A stretch of DNA of 64,000 bases, taken from positions 372,001-436,000 of the forward strand of contig NC_018691.1 of the NCBI RefSeq assembly GCF_000300005.1. The letters run 5' to 3'. Below the pieces are notes generated by a model. That model saw nothing but the letters and a program-made list of their open reading frames with translations. It was not told where the DNA came from and searched no databases. Below are positions 10,096-24,001 of this stretch, one piece after another. The position numbers were made by a program, and so were the translations under genes. The stretch comes from Alloalcanivorax dieselolei B5 (lineage in GTDB: Bacteria; Pseudomonadota; Gammaproteobacteria; Pseudomonadales; Alcanivoracaceae). Each line of letters begins with the position of its first letter. Position 1 is the stretch's first letter.

Positions 10096-10181
10096 AAGGG
10101 TAATGTATGACCCTGGTAAGGCAAAAACTCTAACCTCCACGTCGCATGGCGTGGCCAATCGCTCCCGAGGAGGGAACGAAG

Positions 10182-10745
10182 ATGTCTCTTTCAGTGGATA
10201 CGCTGGGTGAAATACGGGCCTTGGTGCGCGGCGGGTTCGATGAGCGTGATGACATCATCGAGATCCTGTGTGAGGAGATGTATGAACCGGGAGAACTGGA
10301 CGAACAAGCGGTGGAGCAGGCCGTGGACGCCGCTTTCAGTGAATTGGAACGGGAAAAGCGCCAATGGCCGGCGGTAACGGATTGCGACCGTTTGGAGCAG
10401 GCGTTCCTGGCGCTCAATAAGCGGGGTGTGATTGCCTTGCACAATGCCGGGTACACGCAGGATGACGGCTATGCCGACGTTCAGGAGGTGTTCTCTGAAC
10501 ACCCTGAGCAGGACAGCGTTAGCGGCTACTGCTTTTACCATGGTCAGGATCTGGAATGCGTGGTATCCGGCGGTGGTCTATATCTGGCCTTCGGCCCCAT
10601 GGACCCGGTGCATGAAGAGACGGAGGGGCCAGTGGTGGGCACGCTGATTGTCGAGGAACTCACCAAGGCCGGCCTGGATGTGCAATGGGATGGTACCTTC
10701 GCCCATCGTATCTTCATTCCCGATATGGATTGGCAGCGTCGCTAA
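10182..10745 (+). CDS. DUF6891-like hypothetical protein
   Basis: A 187-residue acidic soluble protein. The recognisable core is CDRLEQAFLALNKRGVIALHNAGYTQDDGYADV and GYCFYHGQDLECVVSGGGLYLAFGP, which I associate with DUF6891; no biochemical role is known. The ATG at 10182 follows GGAGG, so it is preferred to the in-frame start at 10146. It converges with osmC, whose stop is 11 bp away. Confidence 0.7.
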   Translation: MSLSVDTLGEIRALVRGGFDERDDIIEILCEEMYEPGELDEQAVEQAVDAAFSELEREKRQWPAVTDCDRLEQAFLALNKRGVIALHNAGYTQDDGYADVQEVFSEHPEQDSVSGYCFYHGQDLECVVSGGGLYLAFGPMDPVHEETEGPVVGTLIVEELTKAGLDVQWDGTFAHRIFIPDMDWQRR

Positions 10746-11988: not shown

Positions 11989-12732
11989 TCAGCCCTTCTT
12001 CGCCACCTTCTCCAGCGCCAACAGGGTGTCCATGTAACTGACGAAGTGGTTCAGATAGTCCGGTGACAGGCCGCGCAGGGTCTCCACGCTGCGAGTGACC
12101 AGGCGGTGTGCATTGAGCGGGCCGGCGTCGCCGGGTGTCTGGGCGATGGCGTGGTCGATGCGCTTTTGGGTATGCAGGCGGGCGCGGGTGGCGCGCAGTT
12201 GGCGCAGGGCCTTGAGTTCCCGTGGTGATGCCAGCGGGCGGGTGTTGCGACGCCCCTTGCTGGCGGTTTTCTGAAACAGGTTGGGGTGGTTTCTTAGCAG
12301 AGAATCCAAAGGTGTGTTGTCGGCGCCTTCGTCTTCGACATCACTGTTCTGCAGTGCTTCCAGCAAGGCCACCAGCGGTGAGGGGGAATGCCGTGCCTGC
12401 TGTTCGGCGAGGCGCTGGAATGCGCGCAAGTCACCGCTTTCGAACAGGTGATCCAACTGTGCCTGTGTCGCGTCGTCGAGAGTGTCATAAGGCAAAGCGG
12501 CGCGCCGTACCCGGGCCGCCTCCCGCGCTTCTTCGAAGCGTGCTTGATAGTCCGTCAGCGCCTGCTGCCATTTGTCCTGTTGCGCCAGTGTTGGCGCCCG
12601 GCGGCTTTCCGCCAGCCGTCGCGCCAGAGCTTCCAGATACCGGAAACGCACCGGGTCGTAGCGGTCGGCGTGGTCGTCACGCAGCCGGGCAAGACGTTCC
12701 AGCGGTGTGGGTGAACCGGTGGCGTCACTCAT
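11989..12732 (-). CDS. DUF2894 domain protein, fourth gene of the motor-like operon
   Basis: A 247-residue, Arg/Ala/Leu-rich, mostly helical soluble protein. The N-terminal third (PLERLARLRDDHADRYDPVRFRYLEALARRLAE) and the C-terminal helix (VTRSVETLRGLSPDYLNHFVSYMDTLLALEKV) are the most conserved-looking parts. I assign DUF2894 from the sequence and from its usual company with DUF3348, DUF802 and OmpA genes. It overlaps the OmpA-like gene by 8 bp, implying translational coupling. Possibly a cytoplasmic partner of the long tail of the membrane protein. Confidence 0.75.
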   Translation of the reverse strand: MSDATGSPTPLERLARLRDDHADRYDPVRFRYLEALARRLAESRRAPTLAQQDKWQQALTDYQARFEEAREAARVRRAALPYDTLDDATQAQLDHLFESGDLRAFQRLAEQQARHSPSPLVALLEALQNSDVEDEGADNTPLDSLLRNHPNLFQKTASKGRRNTRPLASPRELKALRQLRATRARLHTQKRIDHAIAQTPGDAGPLNAHRLVTRSVETLRGLSPDYLNHFVSYMDTLLALEKVAKKG

Positions 12733-13366
12733 CGTTCTCTGCCTGATTGCTCTGGCGCGGTACGGTAGTGATCTCCACCCGACGGTTCTGGGCGCGGGAG
12801 GCTTCGCTCTGGTTTGGAACCACCGGCTGGTTGTCGCCGAAAGCGGCGGCGAAAATGCGATCCGCCGGCATGCCCTGGGCGATCAGGGTGCGGGTGACGG
12901 TAAGCGCCCTTTGCGCCGAAAGCCCCCAGTTGTCCTGATAACGCGAATTCCCTTTCTGGATCGCCAGATCGTCGGTGAAGCCACTCACCATCAGCAATTC
13001 ATCATGTTCGCTGAGATAATTCCGCAGCGGTTCCACCAGGCTGCTCAGCAACTTTTCGCCCTGGGGTTGCAGGACATCGGAATTGAGCGCGAACAACACA
13101 CTGCCACTAATGCCGATGCGGCCGTTATGGAAAGTGATGCGGCCGCTGGAGAGGGGATCCCGCAGGGCGTCTTCCAGCGCGATCCGGCGCTGTTCCTCCA
13201 CCTGGCGGCGGGCTTTTTCCTGTTGCAGGGACTGGCTCAGCTCCAGTTGGATGCCGATCACCCACACCGTGATCAGCACAAAAATGCCCACCAGCGCCGC
13301 CATCAGGTCGGAGAAGATGGCCCAGACCGGCGTGGCCTGGGCCTGGCTGTCGTGCAGCTCGTCCAT
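12725..13366 (-). CDS. MotB/ZorB-like OmpA-domain stator protein
   Basis: A 213-residue protein with one N-terminal membrane helix and a periplasmic peptidoglycan-binding OmpA domain. The helix WAIFSDLMAALVGIFVLITV carries an Asp (D20) near its start, the position of the ion-binding Asp in MotB, TolR, ExbD and ZorB. After a short helical linker, the OmpA core has SGFTDDLAI, NWGLSAQRALTV, and NRRVEI, the usual peptidoglycan motif residues. Its start overlaps the stop of the preceding gene (ATGA). Together the two genes form a candidate proton- or sodium-driven unit. Confidence 0.88.
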   Translation of the reverse strand: MDELHDSQAQATPVWAIFSDLMAALVGIFVLITVWVIGIQLELSQSLQQEKARRQVEEQRRIALEDALRDPLSSGRITFHNGRIGISGSVLFALNSDVLQPQGEKLLSSLVEPLRNYLSEHDELLMVSGFTDDLAIQKGNSRYQDNWGLSAQRALTVTRTLIAQGMPADRIFAAAFGDNQPVVPNQSEASRAQNRRVEITTVPRQSNQAENDE

Positions 13367-15666
13367 CAGCCGGCTCCGTTGCCGTTGGTGGCCGACTGCT
13401 GGCGCACCGCGCCAAGCGCTTCAAGCACATCCTTCTGTGAGGTCATGCTCAGGTCGATGACTTCCCGGGCTTGCTCCACGTAGTAAGCCAACTGTTCGTC
13501 GTTGCGTGTGGTGGCCTGCTCCAACGCGGTTTCCACCCGTTGCAGATGGTCCACCAGCTTGTCATTGGCGTCGCTGAACAGCTGCACGGCGACGGAGAAC
13601 GCCTCGCTGAGGCTGGCCACTTCATGGGCGCCGCCGGTGACGTCGGACGTCACTTCATCCAGCTTGCGGCTTTGTTCGTCCACCTGCTGCGAGAAGGCGT
13701 CGCTGACGGTCTTGAGAACATCGGCGGAATCACGGATCAGGCTTTCCACGGCCTCGCGCTGGGCGGTGGCGGCTTCACGCTGGGCGGCCAGCAGGGTTTC
13801 CAGCTCCGCCATGATGCGTCGGCGCTCCTCCAGCATGTCGTTGTCGCGTTCACTGCCGCGAGCCATCTCCTCGCGCAGCTGGCTGATTACCTCGGCGGCG
13901 GCCTTGGGCGTCTCCGAAGCGGTTTCGATCAGACGCGTCATGGGCGCTTCCAGGGCCGCGCCCAGGTCGCCGAGGTGACGGGTAACCGTGGTTTCCAGTT
14001 CCGCCAGCCGCGCGGTGGCGGTTTCGCCACGCCGGGCTTCTTCATCACGCAGCGCGGACAGGGCCTCGCCAGTATCCGCTATCAGTTTCTCCAGGCCGTT
14101 GCGCTGTTGCGCTATAAGCGTCTCGGCGGCGCTCTGGAATTGCTCGTTATGGCTTTGCAGGGTCTGGGTGATGTTTTCAATCAGACCCGCGGCGGAGCGC
14201 TGCTGTTGATCCAGACCATGGCGCCAATGTTCAGCAGTTTGTTCGGTGGTGGCCTGGAAGCGCTCGGCCAGTGTCGCCAACTGACGTTCGCCGGTGCTGT
14301 GCAGTTGCTGGTGGTGTTCGCGAGTCTGGTCCAGCAACGCCTTGCTGTGTTGGTGGAAGGTGTCGTTGTGGTCCTTCAGGGTGGCGCCAAGGCTATCCGC
14401 CAGTTGGACGTTGGCTTGCTGCTGTTCGCTCAGGCCACCGCGCCACAGTTCCGCCGTATGCTCGGTGGTGGTCTGGAAGCGCTCAGCCAGGGCCGACAAT
14501 TGCGCCTCGCTGGCCTGCTGCAAGTGTTGATGATGCTCCCGCGCCTGAGTCAGCAGGCGATCGCTTTGTTCACGGAAGCGTTCGCTGTGCGCCTGCAGTG
14601 CTTCGGCTACCTGTTCCGTCAGCTGACGGCTGTATTGTTGCTGCTCGCCAAGACCGGATTGCCAGGCCCGGGCGGCGTGCTCGGTGGTGCTCTGGAAGCG
14701 TTCCGCCAGGGCGCCGAGTTGGCGCTCGCTGATCTCGCTGAGCGCCTGGTGGGTGCTTTCCGCCTGTTGTCCCAGACGGGCCATGGCCGCTTCCACGATC
14801 GGGCGGGTGCTCTCCGCCGCGATGCGGCCGCTGTCCGCCAGGCTCTGTTTCAGGGTATCGCTGACCGAGCGGGCCAGTTGCTGGTAGTGGCCGCTGACGT
14901 CGTCATGGAATTGTTGCTGGTTTTGCGTCAAAGCACCGCTGACCTGCTCGCTCATGTGTTCCATGCGTTCGGCAAGATGACCGAGTTGGGCAACCACTTC
15001 GGGGAAGGCGGCGGACTGCTCTCGCAACGCCTGGTAAGTATCGCGCTGTTGCTGGCCGATCGAGAACGCACGCAGTTCCGTGGCGATATGACCGTCCAGC
15101 TCGCGGCCGGTCACAATCCGGTCCCGGCGGCTCAGGGCGGCGGCCAGGCCCAGCATGGCGGAGCTGGCGACACCGGCGATGGAGGTGCCGAACGCCAGGC
15201 TCATGCCGCTGATCGGCGCGGCCAGGGCATTACGGATGGCGTGCAGTTCGCTGCCGCCCTCCAGAGCGGTAACGGCACCGCGCAGAGTCACGATCATGCC
15301 GATGAAGGTGCCGAGCAGGCCGAGCATGACCAGCAGACCGGAGAGGTAGGGGGTTAGCATCGGGCCGGGCAGGGCGGCCGGCTCGCCTTCCACCCGACGG
15401 CGCACCGCGTTACGCAGGGAAGCGGGCAGGTCGGAGAGCCATTGGCCCAGGCTGTCCGGGCTGCCCGGCAGTTGTCCCAGGCTCTGGCGCAATTGATCGG
15501 TGGCGCGGCGGAACTGCCGCAGCTCCAGGAAGCCCAGGCCGTACACCAGTGCGATCAGCAGGATGGCGGTCAGCGCCACCAGATCGGTGCCGAGAAAGCC
15601 CAGGCCCACCCAGATCACCGTGATGGCGCCCAGAATGAAGGTCAGCGCGAAAAGAAAACGTGTCAT
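13366..15666 (-). CDS. MotA/ExbB/ZorA-like channel protein with long DUF802 repeat tail
   Basis: A 766-residue inner-membrane protein. Four helices are visible: about 5-22, 28-46, 106-130 (YLSGLLVMLGLLGTFIGMIV) and 153-177 (SGMSLAFGTSIAGVASSAMLG). The last two are the MotA/TolQ/ExbB pore signature. From about residue 200 onward it is one long cytoplasmic coiled coil with three exact-length 73-residue repeats (320-538), matching the repeat nature of DUF802. ATG at 15666 overlaps the DUF3348 stop and is preferred to upstream in-frame starts. The plan equals ZorA (motor domain plus long tail), but the tail sequence is its own family. Confidence 0.88.
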   Translation of the reverse strand: MTRFLFALTFILGAITVIWVGLGFLGTDLVALTAILLIALVYGLGFLELRQFRRATDQLRQSLGQLPGSPDSLGQWLSDLPASLRNAVRRRVEGEPAALPGPMLTPYLSGLLVMLGLLGTFIGMIVTLRGAVTALEGGSELHAIRNALAAPISGMSLAFGTSIAGVASSAMLGLAAALSRRDRIVTGRELDGHIATELRAFSIGQQQRDTYQALREQSAAFPEVVAQLGHLAERMEHMSEQVSGALTQNQQQFHDDVSGHYQQLARSVSDTLKQSLADSGRIAAESTRPIVEAAMARLGQQAESTHQALSEISERQLGALAERFQSTTEHAARAWQSGLGEQQQYSRQLTEQVAEALQAHSERFREQSDRLLTQAREHHQHLQQASEAQLSALAERFQTTTEHTAELWRGGLSEQQQANVQLADSLGATLKDHNDTFHQHSKALLDQTREHHQQLHSTGERQLATLAERFQATTEQTAEHWRHGLDQQQRSAAGLIENITQTLQSHNEQFQSAAETLIAQQRNGLEKLIADTGEALSALRDEEARRGETATARLAELETTVTRHLGDLGAALEAPMTRLIETASETPKAAAEVISQLREEMARGSERDNDMLEERRRIMAELETLLAAQREAATAQREAVESLIRDSADVLKTVSDAFSQQVDEQSRKLDEVTSDVTGGAHEVASLSEAFSVAVQLFSDANDKLVDHLQRVETALEQATTRNDEQLAYYVEQAREVIDLSMTSQKDVLEALGAVRQQSATNGNGAG
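14053..14709 (-). repeat. Three tandem 219-bp repeats (73 residues each) inside the motor tail gene
   Basis: Units run 14709-14491, 14490-14272 and 14271-14053. Each begins LAERFQ-x-TTE and contains W-x-x-GL-x-x-QQQ at about unit residue 16-25. Units 1 and 2 keep a further REHHQ-x-L block near residue 57, which has decayed in unit 3. All three are exactly 73 residues long without gaps. Confidence 0.9.
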
Positions 15667-16424
15667 TGCGGGAGTGGTTCCTCGTGATTCAATGCGTCCA
15701 GCAGGCCCTGCACCGGCTCCAAACGGGTTTCCAGCTCGGCCAGCAGCAGCGTCTGCATTTCCTGCCGAAACTGGTGTAACCAGCCCCCCGGCGCCACCCA
15801 GGCGTCGGTCGGATCGGGCTGATCTTCCTGTTGTTGATTGCGGTGCGCCCGCCAAAGGGAGCGAAAGCGTTTGCCCAGCACCATCGGTATGGCGCCGAAG
15901 CAGTAACGGCCGTAGCTGGCCAGGGTGTTGTCGAACACCGTGTCGAGCACGGCGAGCTGGGCGAGAGCGTGATTCTGGGCGGCGAAGCCGTCGCGGAGAC
16001 GTTGCCGAAGATACTGGATAGCGGTGATCAGCTGCCTCTGATGGGACAGGTAAAAACGTTCATAGGGTTTGAACACCGGTGGCGTTTCGATGGTCTCCGG
16101 CAGTCGCAGCTTCACCTTGACGTCGCCGGGGTCGAAACTCAGCGTGATGCCGTTGAGGAGCGTGTCCCGGGTCTGGTTGAAGTCCGCCCGCAGACGCTCC
16201 GTCAGACCTTCTTCGGGGCGGAATGGCCCCATGGACTGGTACTTATAGGCGGCGTCCAGCGCAATGGTATCGGACAGATCGAACAACCGGCCCATGCGCT
16301 CCGCGAAGCAGGCGTGAGCATCAAGGCCGGTGCCGTTGCCCAGTGCGGCCACCAGCTGTACCAATCTGGCGCTGGGAGGGGCCGGTTGCGCTTTTTTTTG
16401 CGTCCTGTGCGTGTTGTTGCTCAT
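15663..16424 (-). CDS. DUF3348 domain protein, first gene of the motor-like operon
   Basis: A 253-residue soluble protein. A basic, low-complexity start precedes a helical domain: SARLVQLVAALGNGTGLDAHACFAERMGRLFDLSDTIALDAAY, then YERFYLSHQRQLITAIQYLRQRLRDG and LGKRFRSLWRAHRNQQQ, ending in WLHQFRQEMQTLLLAELETRLEPVQGLLDAL. I assign DUF3348 from the sequence and its neighbours; function unknown. Its TGA overlaps the ATG of the MotA-like gene. It is the first gene of the operon, 121 bp from the CoA-transferase stop. Confidence 0.78.
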   Translation of the reverse strand: MSNNTHRTQKKAQPAPPSARLVQLVAALGNGTGLDAHACFAERMGRLFDLSDTIALDAAYKYQSMGPFRPEEGLTERLRADFNQTRDTLLNGITLSFDPGDVKVKLRLPETIETPPVFKPYERFYLSHQRQLITAIQYLRQRLRDGFAAQNHALAQLAVLDTVFDNTLASYGRYCFGAIPMVLGKRFRSLWRAHRNQQQEDQPDPTDAWVAPGGWLHQFRQEMQTLLLAELETRLEPVQGLLDALNHEEPLPQ

Positions 16425-22728: not shown

Positions 22729-23889
22729 CTAGGGCCAGCTCCACATCGGCGTATCCAGCAGCCCCTGGCCCAGGATGCGGGTTTCCCCAAGTTCTTTCTC
22801 CAGTTCCACGCCATGGCAGTCCGGTGCCTGATTCAATGCCGCCACCAGGCGGCTGGCATGGCTGATCACCCACACCTGACTGTGGCGGCTGGCGCGGGCA
22901 ATCAGTCGCGCCAGGGCCGGAAGCAGATCCGGATGCAGGCTGTTTTCCGGCTCGTTCAGAACCATCAGTGAGGGCGGCCGTGGTGTCAGCAAGGCCGCGA
23001 TCAGCAGCAGATAACGCAGCGTGCCATCGGACAGCTCCGCCGCTGTCAGCGGACGCAGCAGGCCGTACTGGTGGAAGGCGATCTTGAGCCGGCCGTCGTC
23101 CAGGGGAACGATGGCCAGGCGCGCGCCGGGAAAGGCATCCTCGATGGCACTGTCGAGCGCCCGGGCATCGCCGATTTCCCGAATGGTTTGCAGGGCCGCC
23201 GCCAGATCGCGTCCGTCGTGATGCAGCACGGGGGTACGGGTGCCCAGTTGGACCTGCCGGGCGGGGGCGCCCTGATCGGTGCGAAAGTGGTCGTAGAAGC
23301 GCCAACCGCGAATCCGCTCGCGCAGGGTGACCACCTCTGGTGTGGTGCGGGCGTCGGCCACCTGACTGAACAGGCTGTCGAAGCTGTTGAGGTGGTCGCT
23401 GATAACCTGCCAGGGGCCTTCACCCCGGGTTTTCACCAGCGGGCCGCAGCGATCCACCAGCACCGTGGCCGGACGATAGCCGGAGCCGGCCCAGATCAGT
23501 TCCCGTTTGATCTCCGGGTCCAGATTGAAGGCGGTGGTGGCGTCCGGTTTCGGCAGACCCAGCTCGATCAGATAGCCATAGTCCTCATCGTTGAATCCGA
23601 GACGCAGGCGGCGGCTGTGCTGGCGAGGCCCGCCCTGCACCGGCACCGAGCCGTTGCGCATGCCTTTGGTGAGGGTCTCCGGTCCGGCCCAGAACGTGGA
23701 TTCCAGCCCGCCTTCGGCGGCCAGGGCGGCGATCACGTCATCACGCGCGGTGGCGGCCAGCAATCGCAGGGCGCGGTACAGATTGGATTTACCGCTGCCA
23801 TTGGCTCCGGTGACCACATTGAGGGGCCCCAGCGGCACGGTCAGATTCAGAACGGAACGGTAGTTGCCAATGGCCAGCGTGGTCAGCAT
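22729..23889 (-). CDS. AAA family ATPase (RecF/SMC-like, AAA_21)
   Basis: A 386-residue single-chain ABC/SMC-type ATPase. It begins LTTLAIGNYRSVLNLTVPLGPLNVVTGANGSGKSN, with Walker A at 28-36. The signature-like ELSDGTLRYLLLIAALL and Walker B PSLMVLNEPENSLHPDLLPAL are followed by the H-loop region VWVISHASRLVAAL. It is of full length for stand-alone ATPases often annotated as predicted ATPase. No nuclease (OLD/TOPRIM) domain is attached. The ATG at 23889 is preferred because the family starts at the first beta strand. Confidence 0.85.
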   Translation of the reverse strand: MLTTLAIGNYRSVLNLTVPLGPLNVVTGANGSGKSNLYRALRLLAATARDDVIAALAAEGGLESTFWAGPETLTKGMRNGSVPVQGGPRQHSRRLRLGFNDEDYGYLIELGLPKPDATTAFNLDPEIKRELIWAGSGYRPATVLVDRCGPLVKTRGEGPWQVISDHLNSFDSLFSQVADARTTPEVVTLRERIRGWRFYDHFRTDQGAPARQVQLGTRTPVLHHDGRDLAAALQTIREIGDARALDSAIEDAFPGARLAIVPLDDGRLKIAFHQYGLLRPLTAAELSDGTLRYLLLIAALLTPRPPSLMVLNEPENSLHPDLLPALARLIARASRHSQVWVISHASRLVAALNQAPDCHGVELEKELGETRILGQGLLDTPMWSWP

Positions 23890-24001
23890 GCGGGACGGTT
23901 CCTGGTGGCGGAGAGGGGCCAGTAAAAGGGAATCCCGGCGCTGTTTCAAGGCGGTGGAAGCGGGCCTTCCGCGTCATCGGCGCCGTGCTATGCTGGCGCC
24001 C

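Follow-up and report, generated by a model that had tools for sequence, protein, structure and literature searches.

The Zorya type III operon of Alloalcanivorax dieselolei B5: a putative motor with two partners that looks lineage-core in several genera

Introduction

What would an ion-driven membrane motor do with two partner proteins when its own genes are locked to theirs? This question is raised by a four-gene operon of Alloalcanivorax dieselolei B5, which codes for a ZorA-like channel, a ZorB-like protein, and proteins of the DUF3348 and DUF2894 families. The operon lies in a 64,000-nucleotide stretch of contig NC_018691.1 (positions 372,001 to 436,000), hereafter the window, whose own numbering is used throughout; the genome (G000) is a single contig of 4.9 Mb. 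An earlier note, made from the letters alone, had described a separate stator-type system with unknown partners. As judged from family and model matches, the four genes are instead Zorya type III, a kind of system named in 2021 (Payne et al. 2021, PMC8565338). The product is most likely a peptidoglycan-anchored ion motor, the tail tip of which works on the two partners. That this motor serves as a resident defence in several lineages is a reading we hold at about even chances, and the evidence on both sides of it is weighed below.

Identity of the operon

All four genes are read from the minus strand, and all of them match PADLOC models of Zorya type III. The first is the DUF3348 gene (15663-16424), which encodes 253 amino acids (aa) and matches Pfam PF11828 (2.1e-85) and PADLOC ZorG3 (3.4e-106). 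It is followed by zorA3 (13366-15666), whose product of 766 aa, counted from the ATG, combines a MotA-like channel with a cytoplasmic tail of about 536 residues (PADLOC ZorA3, 1.7e-260). Next comes zorB3 (12725-13366), encoding 213 aa with one N-terminal membrane helix and an OmpA-type peptidoglycan domain (PADLOC ZorB3, 9e-106; NCBIfam PRK09040, 1.3e-103); its best named match is the protein of Alloalcanivorax xenomutans, at 99% identity. The last is the DUF2894 gene (11989-12732; 247 aa; PF11445, 2.4e-63; PADLOC ZorF3, 1.5e-53). In this order the genes overlap by 4, 1 and 8 nucleotides, which, along with the minus-strand calls, confirms the overlapping four-gene operon proposed earlier. The interval then given for it, 12725-16424, covers three of the genes and leaves the DUF2894 gene outside.

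The reading of the core as ZorAB-like, with a long ZorA tail, is borne out by the ZorA3 and ZorB3 matches, and the stated lack of ZorC and ZorD also holds, as none of the four genes matches ZorC, ZorD or ZorE in PADLOC. The MotA/ExbB nature of the channel stands in part. Kinship is found through the PADLOC ZorA models and a profile of type I ZorA (ZorA1), whereas MotA_ExbB is absent among the eight Pfam families listed at E<=1 for the 766-aa protein. Pfam DUF802 is matched in three stretches of the tail (1e-38).

Pairs of the zorAB type (printed as zorBC) standing between genes for DUF3348 and DUF2894 were counted in 6,401 cases and named Zorya type III by Payne et al. (2021, PMC8565338), a definition taken up again in 2025 by a structural study of types I and II (PMC11890865). 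The features of that definition are all found in the operon: a ZorA3 with channel and long tail, a ZorB3 that has the membrane Asp together with an OmpA domain, and flanking DUF3348 and DUF2894 genes. Payne et al. also report that the system of Stenotrophomonas nitritireducens reduced plaque formation by one or more phages in Escherichia coli BL21-AI, and they suggest that ZorAB is regulated by the two partners (PMC8565338). Thus, the note saw the core correctly, and the system that it left unnamed was already known, since type III had been named in 2021 and a plaquing effect in E. coli had been reported. In Burkholderia cenocepacia, infection altered the expression of one or two genes at the start of a predicted Zorya III (PMC12584637). 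In a Variovorax paper the system is named only as one of the PADLOC predictions (PMC11953036). The partner names need care, as they are swapped between sources: the papers call DUF3348 ZorF and DUF2894 ZorG (PMC8565338, PMC11890865), whereas in PADLOC-DB (PDLC00652-00658) ZorF is DUF2894 and ZorG is DUF3348. Family names are used below.

Conservation of the gene arrangement

A scan with ZorB gave at least 564 relatives; the 80 best loci among them are referred to as the named loci. The order DUF3348-ZorA-ZorB-DUF2894 on one strand was observed in 74 of the 80, and the remaining six are cut upstream by a contig end; the arrangement is therefore far beyond chance. The earlier claim that the core is locked to these two genes is upheld by this count, as is conservation of the four genes together, which the note had put forward as a check. 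Similarly, 20/20 further loci, fetched from two genera by DUF3348, have the complete set of four genes along with the tail tip described below. Among 194 genomes of the order, DUF3348 was found in 38 and the ZorA tip region (126-aa query) also in 38; of the 39 genomes with at least one of them, 37 have both. The two exceptions are G115, whose DUF3348 match lies below the family cut-off, and G174, a fragmented genome with 6% contamination.

The motor core

ZorB carries Asp20, the presumed ion-carrying residue (codon 13307-13309, minus strand), within FSDLMAALVGIFVLI. It is invariant in 18/18 aligned relatives and in 88/88 ZorB rows, a few of which represent one genome from two sources; the conserved membrane Asp that the note had asked for is thus present. 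The OmpA domain spans residues 91-195 (12782-13096, minus strand; PF00691, 9.9e-17). From residue 8 to about 200 the ZorB profile aligns with PDB chains 8vvn_B (E 7e-9) and 8qyd_F (4.5e-8), which are presumed to be type I ZorB. Structures of MotB and PomB give better E-values but align only from about residue 50 onward, that is, over the periplasmic part.

In ZorA, the most conserved part of the channel comprises residues 91-190 (15097-15396, minus strand), in which P106, G116, G119-T120, T127, G154 and T161-S162 are kept at >=97% in 81 homologues (83 rows less two shorter ones). In the same set the mean frequency of the top residue is 0.83 for residues 91-120, 0.74 for 121-150 and 0.86 for 151-180. 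Residues 110-226 align with a profile of three ZorA1 proteins at a hhalign probability of 96% (E=4e-9).

The ZorA tail and its tip

Beyond residue 230, the hydrophobic pattern of the window tail has a period of 3.66, with a power of 24.5, whereas 500 shuffles reached 10.0 at most. None of the 81 homologue tails peaks in the heptad range of 3.45-3.55; 42 peak at 3.62-3.70, 31 at 3.58-3.62 and eight elsewhere between 3.56 and 3.73. Since these periods lie outside the heptad range, the tail resembles a coil that is straight or right-handed, as do the three ZorA1 tails, which peak at 3.56, 3.65 and 3.65. If fully helical, the 536 residues would extend over about 80 nm, going by the helix rise.

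Three units of 73 aa, with a spacing of 219 nucleotides and identity at lag 73, make up residues 312-530 (14077-14733, minus strand). Three sister species have one extra unit, their ZorA being 839 aa long instead of 766, a difference of exactly 73 aa. As 73 residues make 20 turns at a period of 3.65, a unit could be gained or lost without changing the face of the helix. The unit was also considered as a general feature of the tail and rejected: lag 73 is the best self-match in just 6 of at most 83 tails, against 7 for lag 40, and the unit is therefore restricted to the lineage of the window and its near relatives.

The far end of the tail is a different matter. Residues 721-744 (13435-13506, minus strand) hold the motif R-x-D-E-Q-L-x-Y-Y-V-x-Q-A-R-E-x-I-x-x-S, which is near-invariant in the 81 homologues, with R721, D723, Q725, Y729, Q732 and A733 at 100% (rounded). 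The mean top-residue frequency over residues 721-750 is 0.78, as compared with 0.74-0.86 in the channel, whereas conservation is low in the central part of the tail. A second conserved block lies in the distal tail at residues 571-600 (13867-13956, minus strand; mean 0.77). A model of the ZorA3 tip gave nothing significant in the three ZorA1 proteins searched.

The partner proteins

AlphaFold2 predicts DUF3348 as an all-helical bundle, with a predicted local distance difference test score (pLDDT) of 78 and a predicted template modelling score (pTM) of 0.76. DUF2894 is poorly predicted (pTM 0.42), and in its C-terminal part the residues GPLN are invariant. In other lineages (loci L139, L126, L146 and L150, for example) DUF2894 proteins bear basic, Lys/Ala-rich C-terminal tails that recall those of histone H1. 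A tail of at least 8 residues was found in 42 of 77 rows (88 less 11 without a recognised core end), and 36 of the 42 have a net charge of +4 or more. The window protein has no such basic, Lys/Ala-rich tail; DNA binding by DUF2894 is therefore only a lead.

The four genes diverge at different rates. Between the window and nine more distant members of the genus, identity is 46% for both partners, 54% for the ZorA tail, 70% for the channel, 76-77% for ZorB and 83% for a neighbouring oxidoreductase. In three close pairs, the ratio of non-synonymous to synonymous substitution (dN/dS) is 0.15-0.20 for the partners, 0.13 for the tail, 0.04-0.12 for the channel and 0.015-0.05 for ZorB, so that all four genes are under purifying selection. 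These ratios lend no support to positive selection on the partners, which had been considered as well.

Distribution among genera

One genome per species was searched with DUF3348. It was found in 13/13 species of Alloalcanivorax, 17/17 of genus g4 (called Alcanivorax), 18/18 of genus g27 and 87/91 of genus g258, the locus of which is nearest to Pseudoxanthomonas among the loci compared. Elsewhere it occurs in 5/6 (g57), 3/5 (g17) and 2/7 (g3) species, and in 0/9 of five other genera of the family. A sample of the order gave 38/194 genomes (37 over the cut-off) in 18/96 genera, and a sample of the class 8/369. Two families served as controls: EH_Signature, a marker of type I Zorya, in 5/194 genomes (4 over the cut-off), one per genus, and the restriction family HSDR_N in 8/13 Alloalcanivorax, with 0 to 4 matches. 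Thus, Zorya III looks lineage-core in several genera. A limited literature search turned up no paper on the core-genome status of the system.

In a tree of joined ZorA and ZorB (83 rows), 27 label changes are needed for 26 groups, as against a mean of 39.8 after shuffling, and the 21 Marinobacter rows lie on one side of a branch. More than one change is required for each of the labels Alcanivorax, Candidatus Accumulibacter and Rhodoferax, and a Desulfobacteraceae bin stands among gammaproteobacterial rows. The split labels, this bin and the 2/7 occupancy of g3 argue against a purely vertical history.

Genomic place and neighbours

The one recurrent neighbour outside the operon in Alloalcanivorax is the oxidoreductase compared above, a glutathione-dependent disulfide-bond enzyme (NF008731; 8166-9059, plus strand) on the DUF2894 side. 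In 13/13 Alloalcanivorax it is separated from the DUF2894 gene by 0.3 to 4.4 kb, and its recurrence may reflect shared ancestry, co-transfer or function. The same family was also seen on the DUF2894 side in seven loci of other lineages (L079, L136, L186, L190, L191, L192 and L193), namely one Marinobacter, one Burkholderiales bin and 5/10 loci of g27. Other flanking genes of the window are common to at most about four Alloalcanivorax loci.

Among the Marinobacter loci, 9/21 stand beside an fba-pgk-gap/epd-tkt cluster, 10/21 beside cbpM-cbpA and the rest elsewhere, the gene names having been assigned by us from sequence. Open reading frame callers mislabel or miss some genes, worst in loci of low G+C content, and hence the named clusters alone were used. 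Eight named loci of the Alcanivorax type have a common flank of their own; in g258, flanking families are common to subgroups of 12 loci, and in g27 to about half of the loci. As flanks are common to subgroups only, the place of the operon is stable within lineages and variable across whole genera.

In the window, 9/10 scanned neighbours are without a PADLOC match at E<=1e-5. The tenth is an AAA_21 ATPase (22729-23949, minus strand), about 6 kb from the operon, with 50 models at 1e-5; the best is HEC-01A (9e-51), and the protein falls far below the MADS3 cut-off. ZorC, ZorD and ZorE are matched by none of the nine, nor do they figure among the best 25 of the 50 models of the ATPase. A DUF6891 protein (1e-57) is encoded at 10146-10745 on the plus strand, about 1.2 kb past the DUF2894 end of the operon.

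Proposed mechanism and alternative explanations

In types I and II, ZorA and ZorB form a 5:2 complex, and the tail, ion flow and peptidoglycan binding are needed for defence (PMC11890865). By analogy, ZorA and ZorB of the window would form, in the inner membrane, an ion-driven motor of the stator type that the OmpA domain of ZorB ties to peptidoglycan. On a change in the envelope, such as phage entry, ions would pass over Asp20 and the ZorA ring would turn or shift. A helical tail rod of adjustable length would carry this motion to the invariant tip, which would dock the DUF3348 and DUF2894 proteins and move or release them, and the phage would be stopped. In several lineages, the system would be fixed in the chromosome as a resident first-line defence. 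The sequence basis of this proposal is the gene order, the family matches, Asp20, the repeat and periodicity of the tail, the conservation of the tip, its co-occurrence with DUF3348, and the occupancy. The 5:2 assembly, the binding of peptidoglycan, and the need for tail and Asp are carried over from types I and II, while the docking of partners at the tip, their roles and a native defence are what we infer.

Several findings weigh against such a defence. The system is near-universal, not patchy, in the four genera named above. Among 138 nearest neighbours, drawn from 23 of the 80 named loci that were chosen by us to spread over lineages, PADLOC at E<=1e-20 gives just three models of the RtcR/PspF type, each in two members; the location in a defence island, which the note had wished to survey, is thus not reflected in any enrichment there. 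The 43 neighbours of four canonical Zorya loci matched 113 families, and among the first 25 of these are type I restriction subunits, DndB, DndC, DndD, PbeC and a type II methyltransferase; this control is unbalanced, its flanks being wider (every gene called over 15-20 kb apart from those of Zorya itself). No relative was found on viral contigs, and among phage records none reaches 80% coverage of the query. On plasmids, ZorB is covered to at least 80% in 30 records, and close relatives, at >=55% identity, are confined to 27 of them, all at least 366 kb in size. The partners match no nuclease, helicase or other effector family in Pfam at E<=1, and DUF3348 has no clear relative in the PDB, with no fold found at E<=0.001. 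In B. cenocepacia, a CRISPR interference phage screen found fitness unaltered by any predicted defence gene, Zorya III among them (PMC12584637). Thus, the near-universal occupancy and the few defence neighbours do not look like those of a typical mobile defence system. The family and one heterologous assay speak for a native defence, the occupancy and neighbours against it.

The same observations can be read otherwise. It may be that the operon codes for a core machine of the cell envelope, which in every cell would relay the state of the envelope to its partners in the cytoplasm; the effect on phage seen in E. coli would then be a by-product of over-expression, and the kinship to Zorya structural, not functional. 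This we consider possible, though we lean against it. It fits the 135 of 139 species of the four genera that carry DUF3348, the scarcity of defence genes nearby, and the fact that no phage or small plasmid was seen to carry the system. The constant oxidoreductase neighbour of Alloalcanivorax, the recurrent flanks of Marinobacter, the position of its 21 rows in the tree, and the purifying selection on all four genes (dN/dS 0.015-0.20) point the same way. However, only 2/16 species in other genera of the family and 38/194 genomes of the order carry the system; it is not essential housekeeping, because most other genera of the family and most of the order lack it. Its place also varies between and within genera, with about half of the Marinobacter loci standing elsewhere and the g258 flanks common to subgroups only. 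The partners diverge much faster than ZorB or the oxidoreductase, and a reduction in plaquing was after all reported in E. coli (PMC8565338). In a related and equally tentative formulation, Zorya III would not be a mobile phage defence in the first place, but a lineage-core rotary machine in which ZorB reads the peptidoglycan, the adjustable rod leads to the invariant tip, and DUF3348 and DUF2894 convert motion into a cytoplasmic output, the anti-phage effect being a by-product or one output among several.

Abortive infection, in which an ion leak through the opened ZorAB pore kills the cell and the partners merely gate the pore, comes close to the proposal of Payne et al., who regard the partners as regulators (PMC8565338). 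It appears improbable to us, as type II employs a separate effector, the ZorE nickase (PMC11890865), and the conserved site specific to type III lies at the far tip of the tail, away from the pore. A stator paralogue of the common flagellar or Tol/Exb type, with partners that are there by accident, would explain the MotA/MotB-like parts and the better match of the OmpA domain to MotB/PomB structures than to the presumed ZorB chains, but the long tail with its own tip motif, the constant presence of both partners, the full-length match to the ZorB3 model and the lack of a Pfam MotA_ExbB match at E<=1 make it very hard to credit.

Significance and comparison with known systems

Apart from the motif at the tail tip, what is new here is the lineage-core pattern, and the native function becomes directly testable by both. 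If the pattern holds, a system annotated by tools as defence is core genome in several proteobacterial genera and inflates the defence counts there; it would also suggest that a stator-type motor has a role not described so far. The tip motif offers a precise site at which the link from motor to partners can be tested.

The nearest known system is Zorya type III itself, to which the operon is alike in all four genes, their order and domains, with very strong model matches. Payne et al. report a patchy genus-level distribution for the surveyed defence systems as a group (PMC8565338), whereas here nearly all species of four genera carry the operon, with few defence neighbours. Types I and II of Zorya have in common with it the motor core, the membrane Asp, the OmpA domain and the long tail, and the non-heptad period was seen in the three ZorA1 tails too. 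They differ in having ZorC and ZorD, or ZorE, none of which is in this operon, and the tip motif was undetected in the three ZorA1. The marker of type I is sparse (5/194 genomes, one per genus), and four such loci lie among Dnd and restriction genes.

The flagellar stators MotAB and PomAB are also ion-driven and have an OmpA-type peptidoglycan domain. They lack the ZorAB tail and partners, and MotB and PomB structures match ZorB only beyond its membrane helix. ExbBD and TolQR share the general plan of an inner-membrane ion motor (PMC12505986), from which the present system departs in that its ZorB carries an OmpA-type domain and its ZorA a tail of 536 residues.

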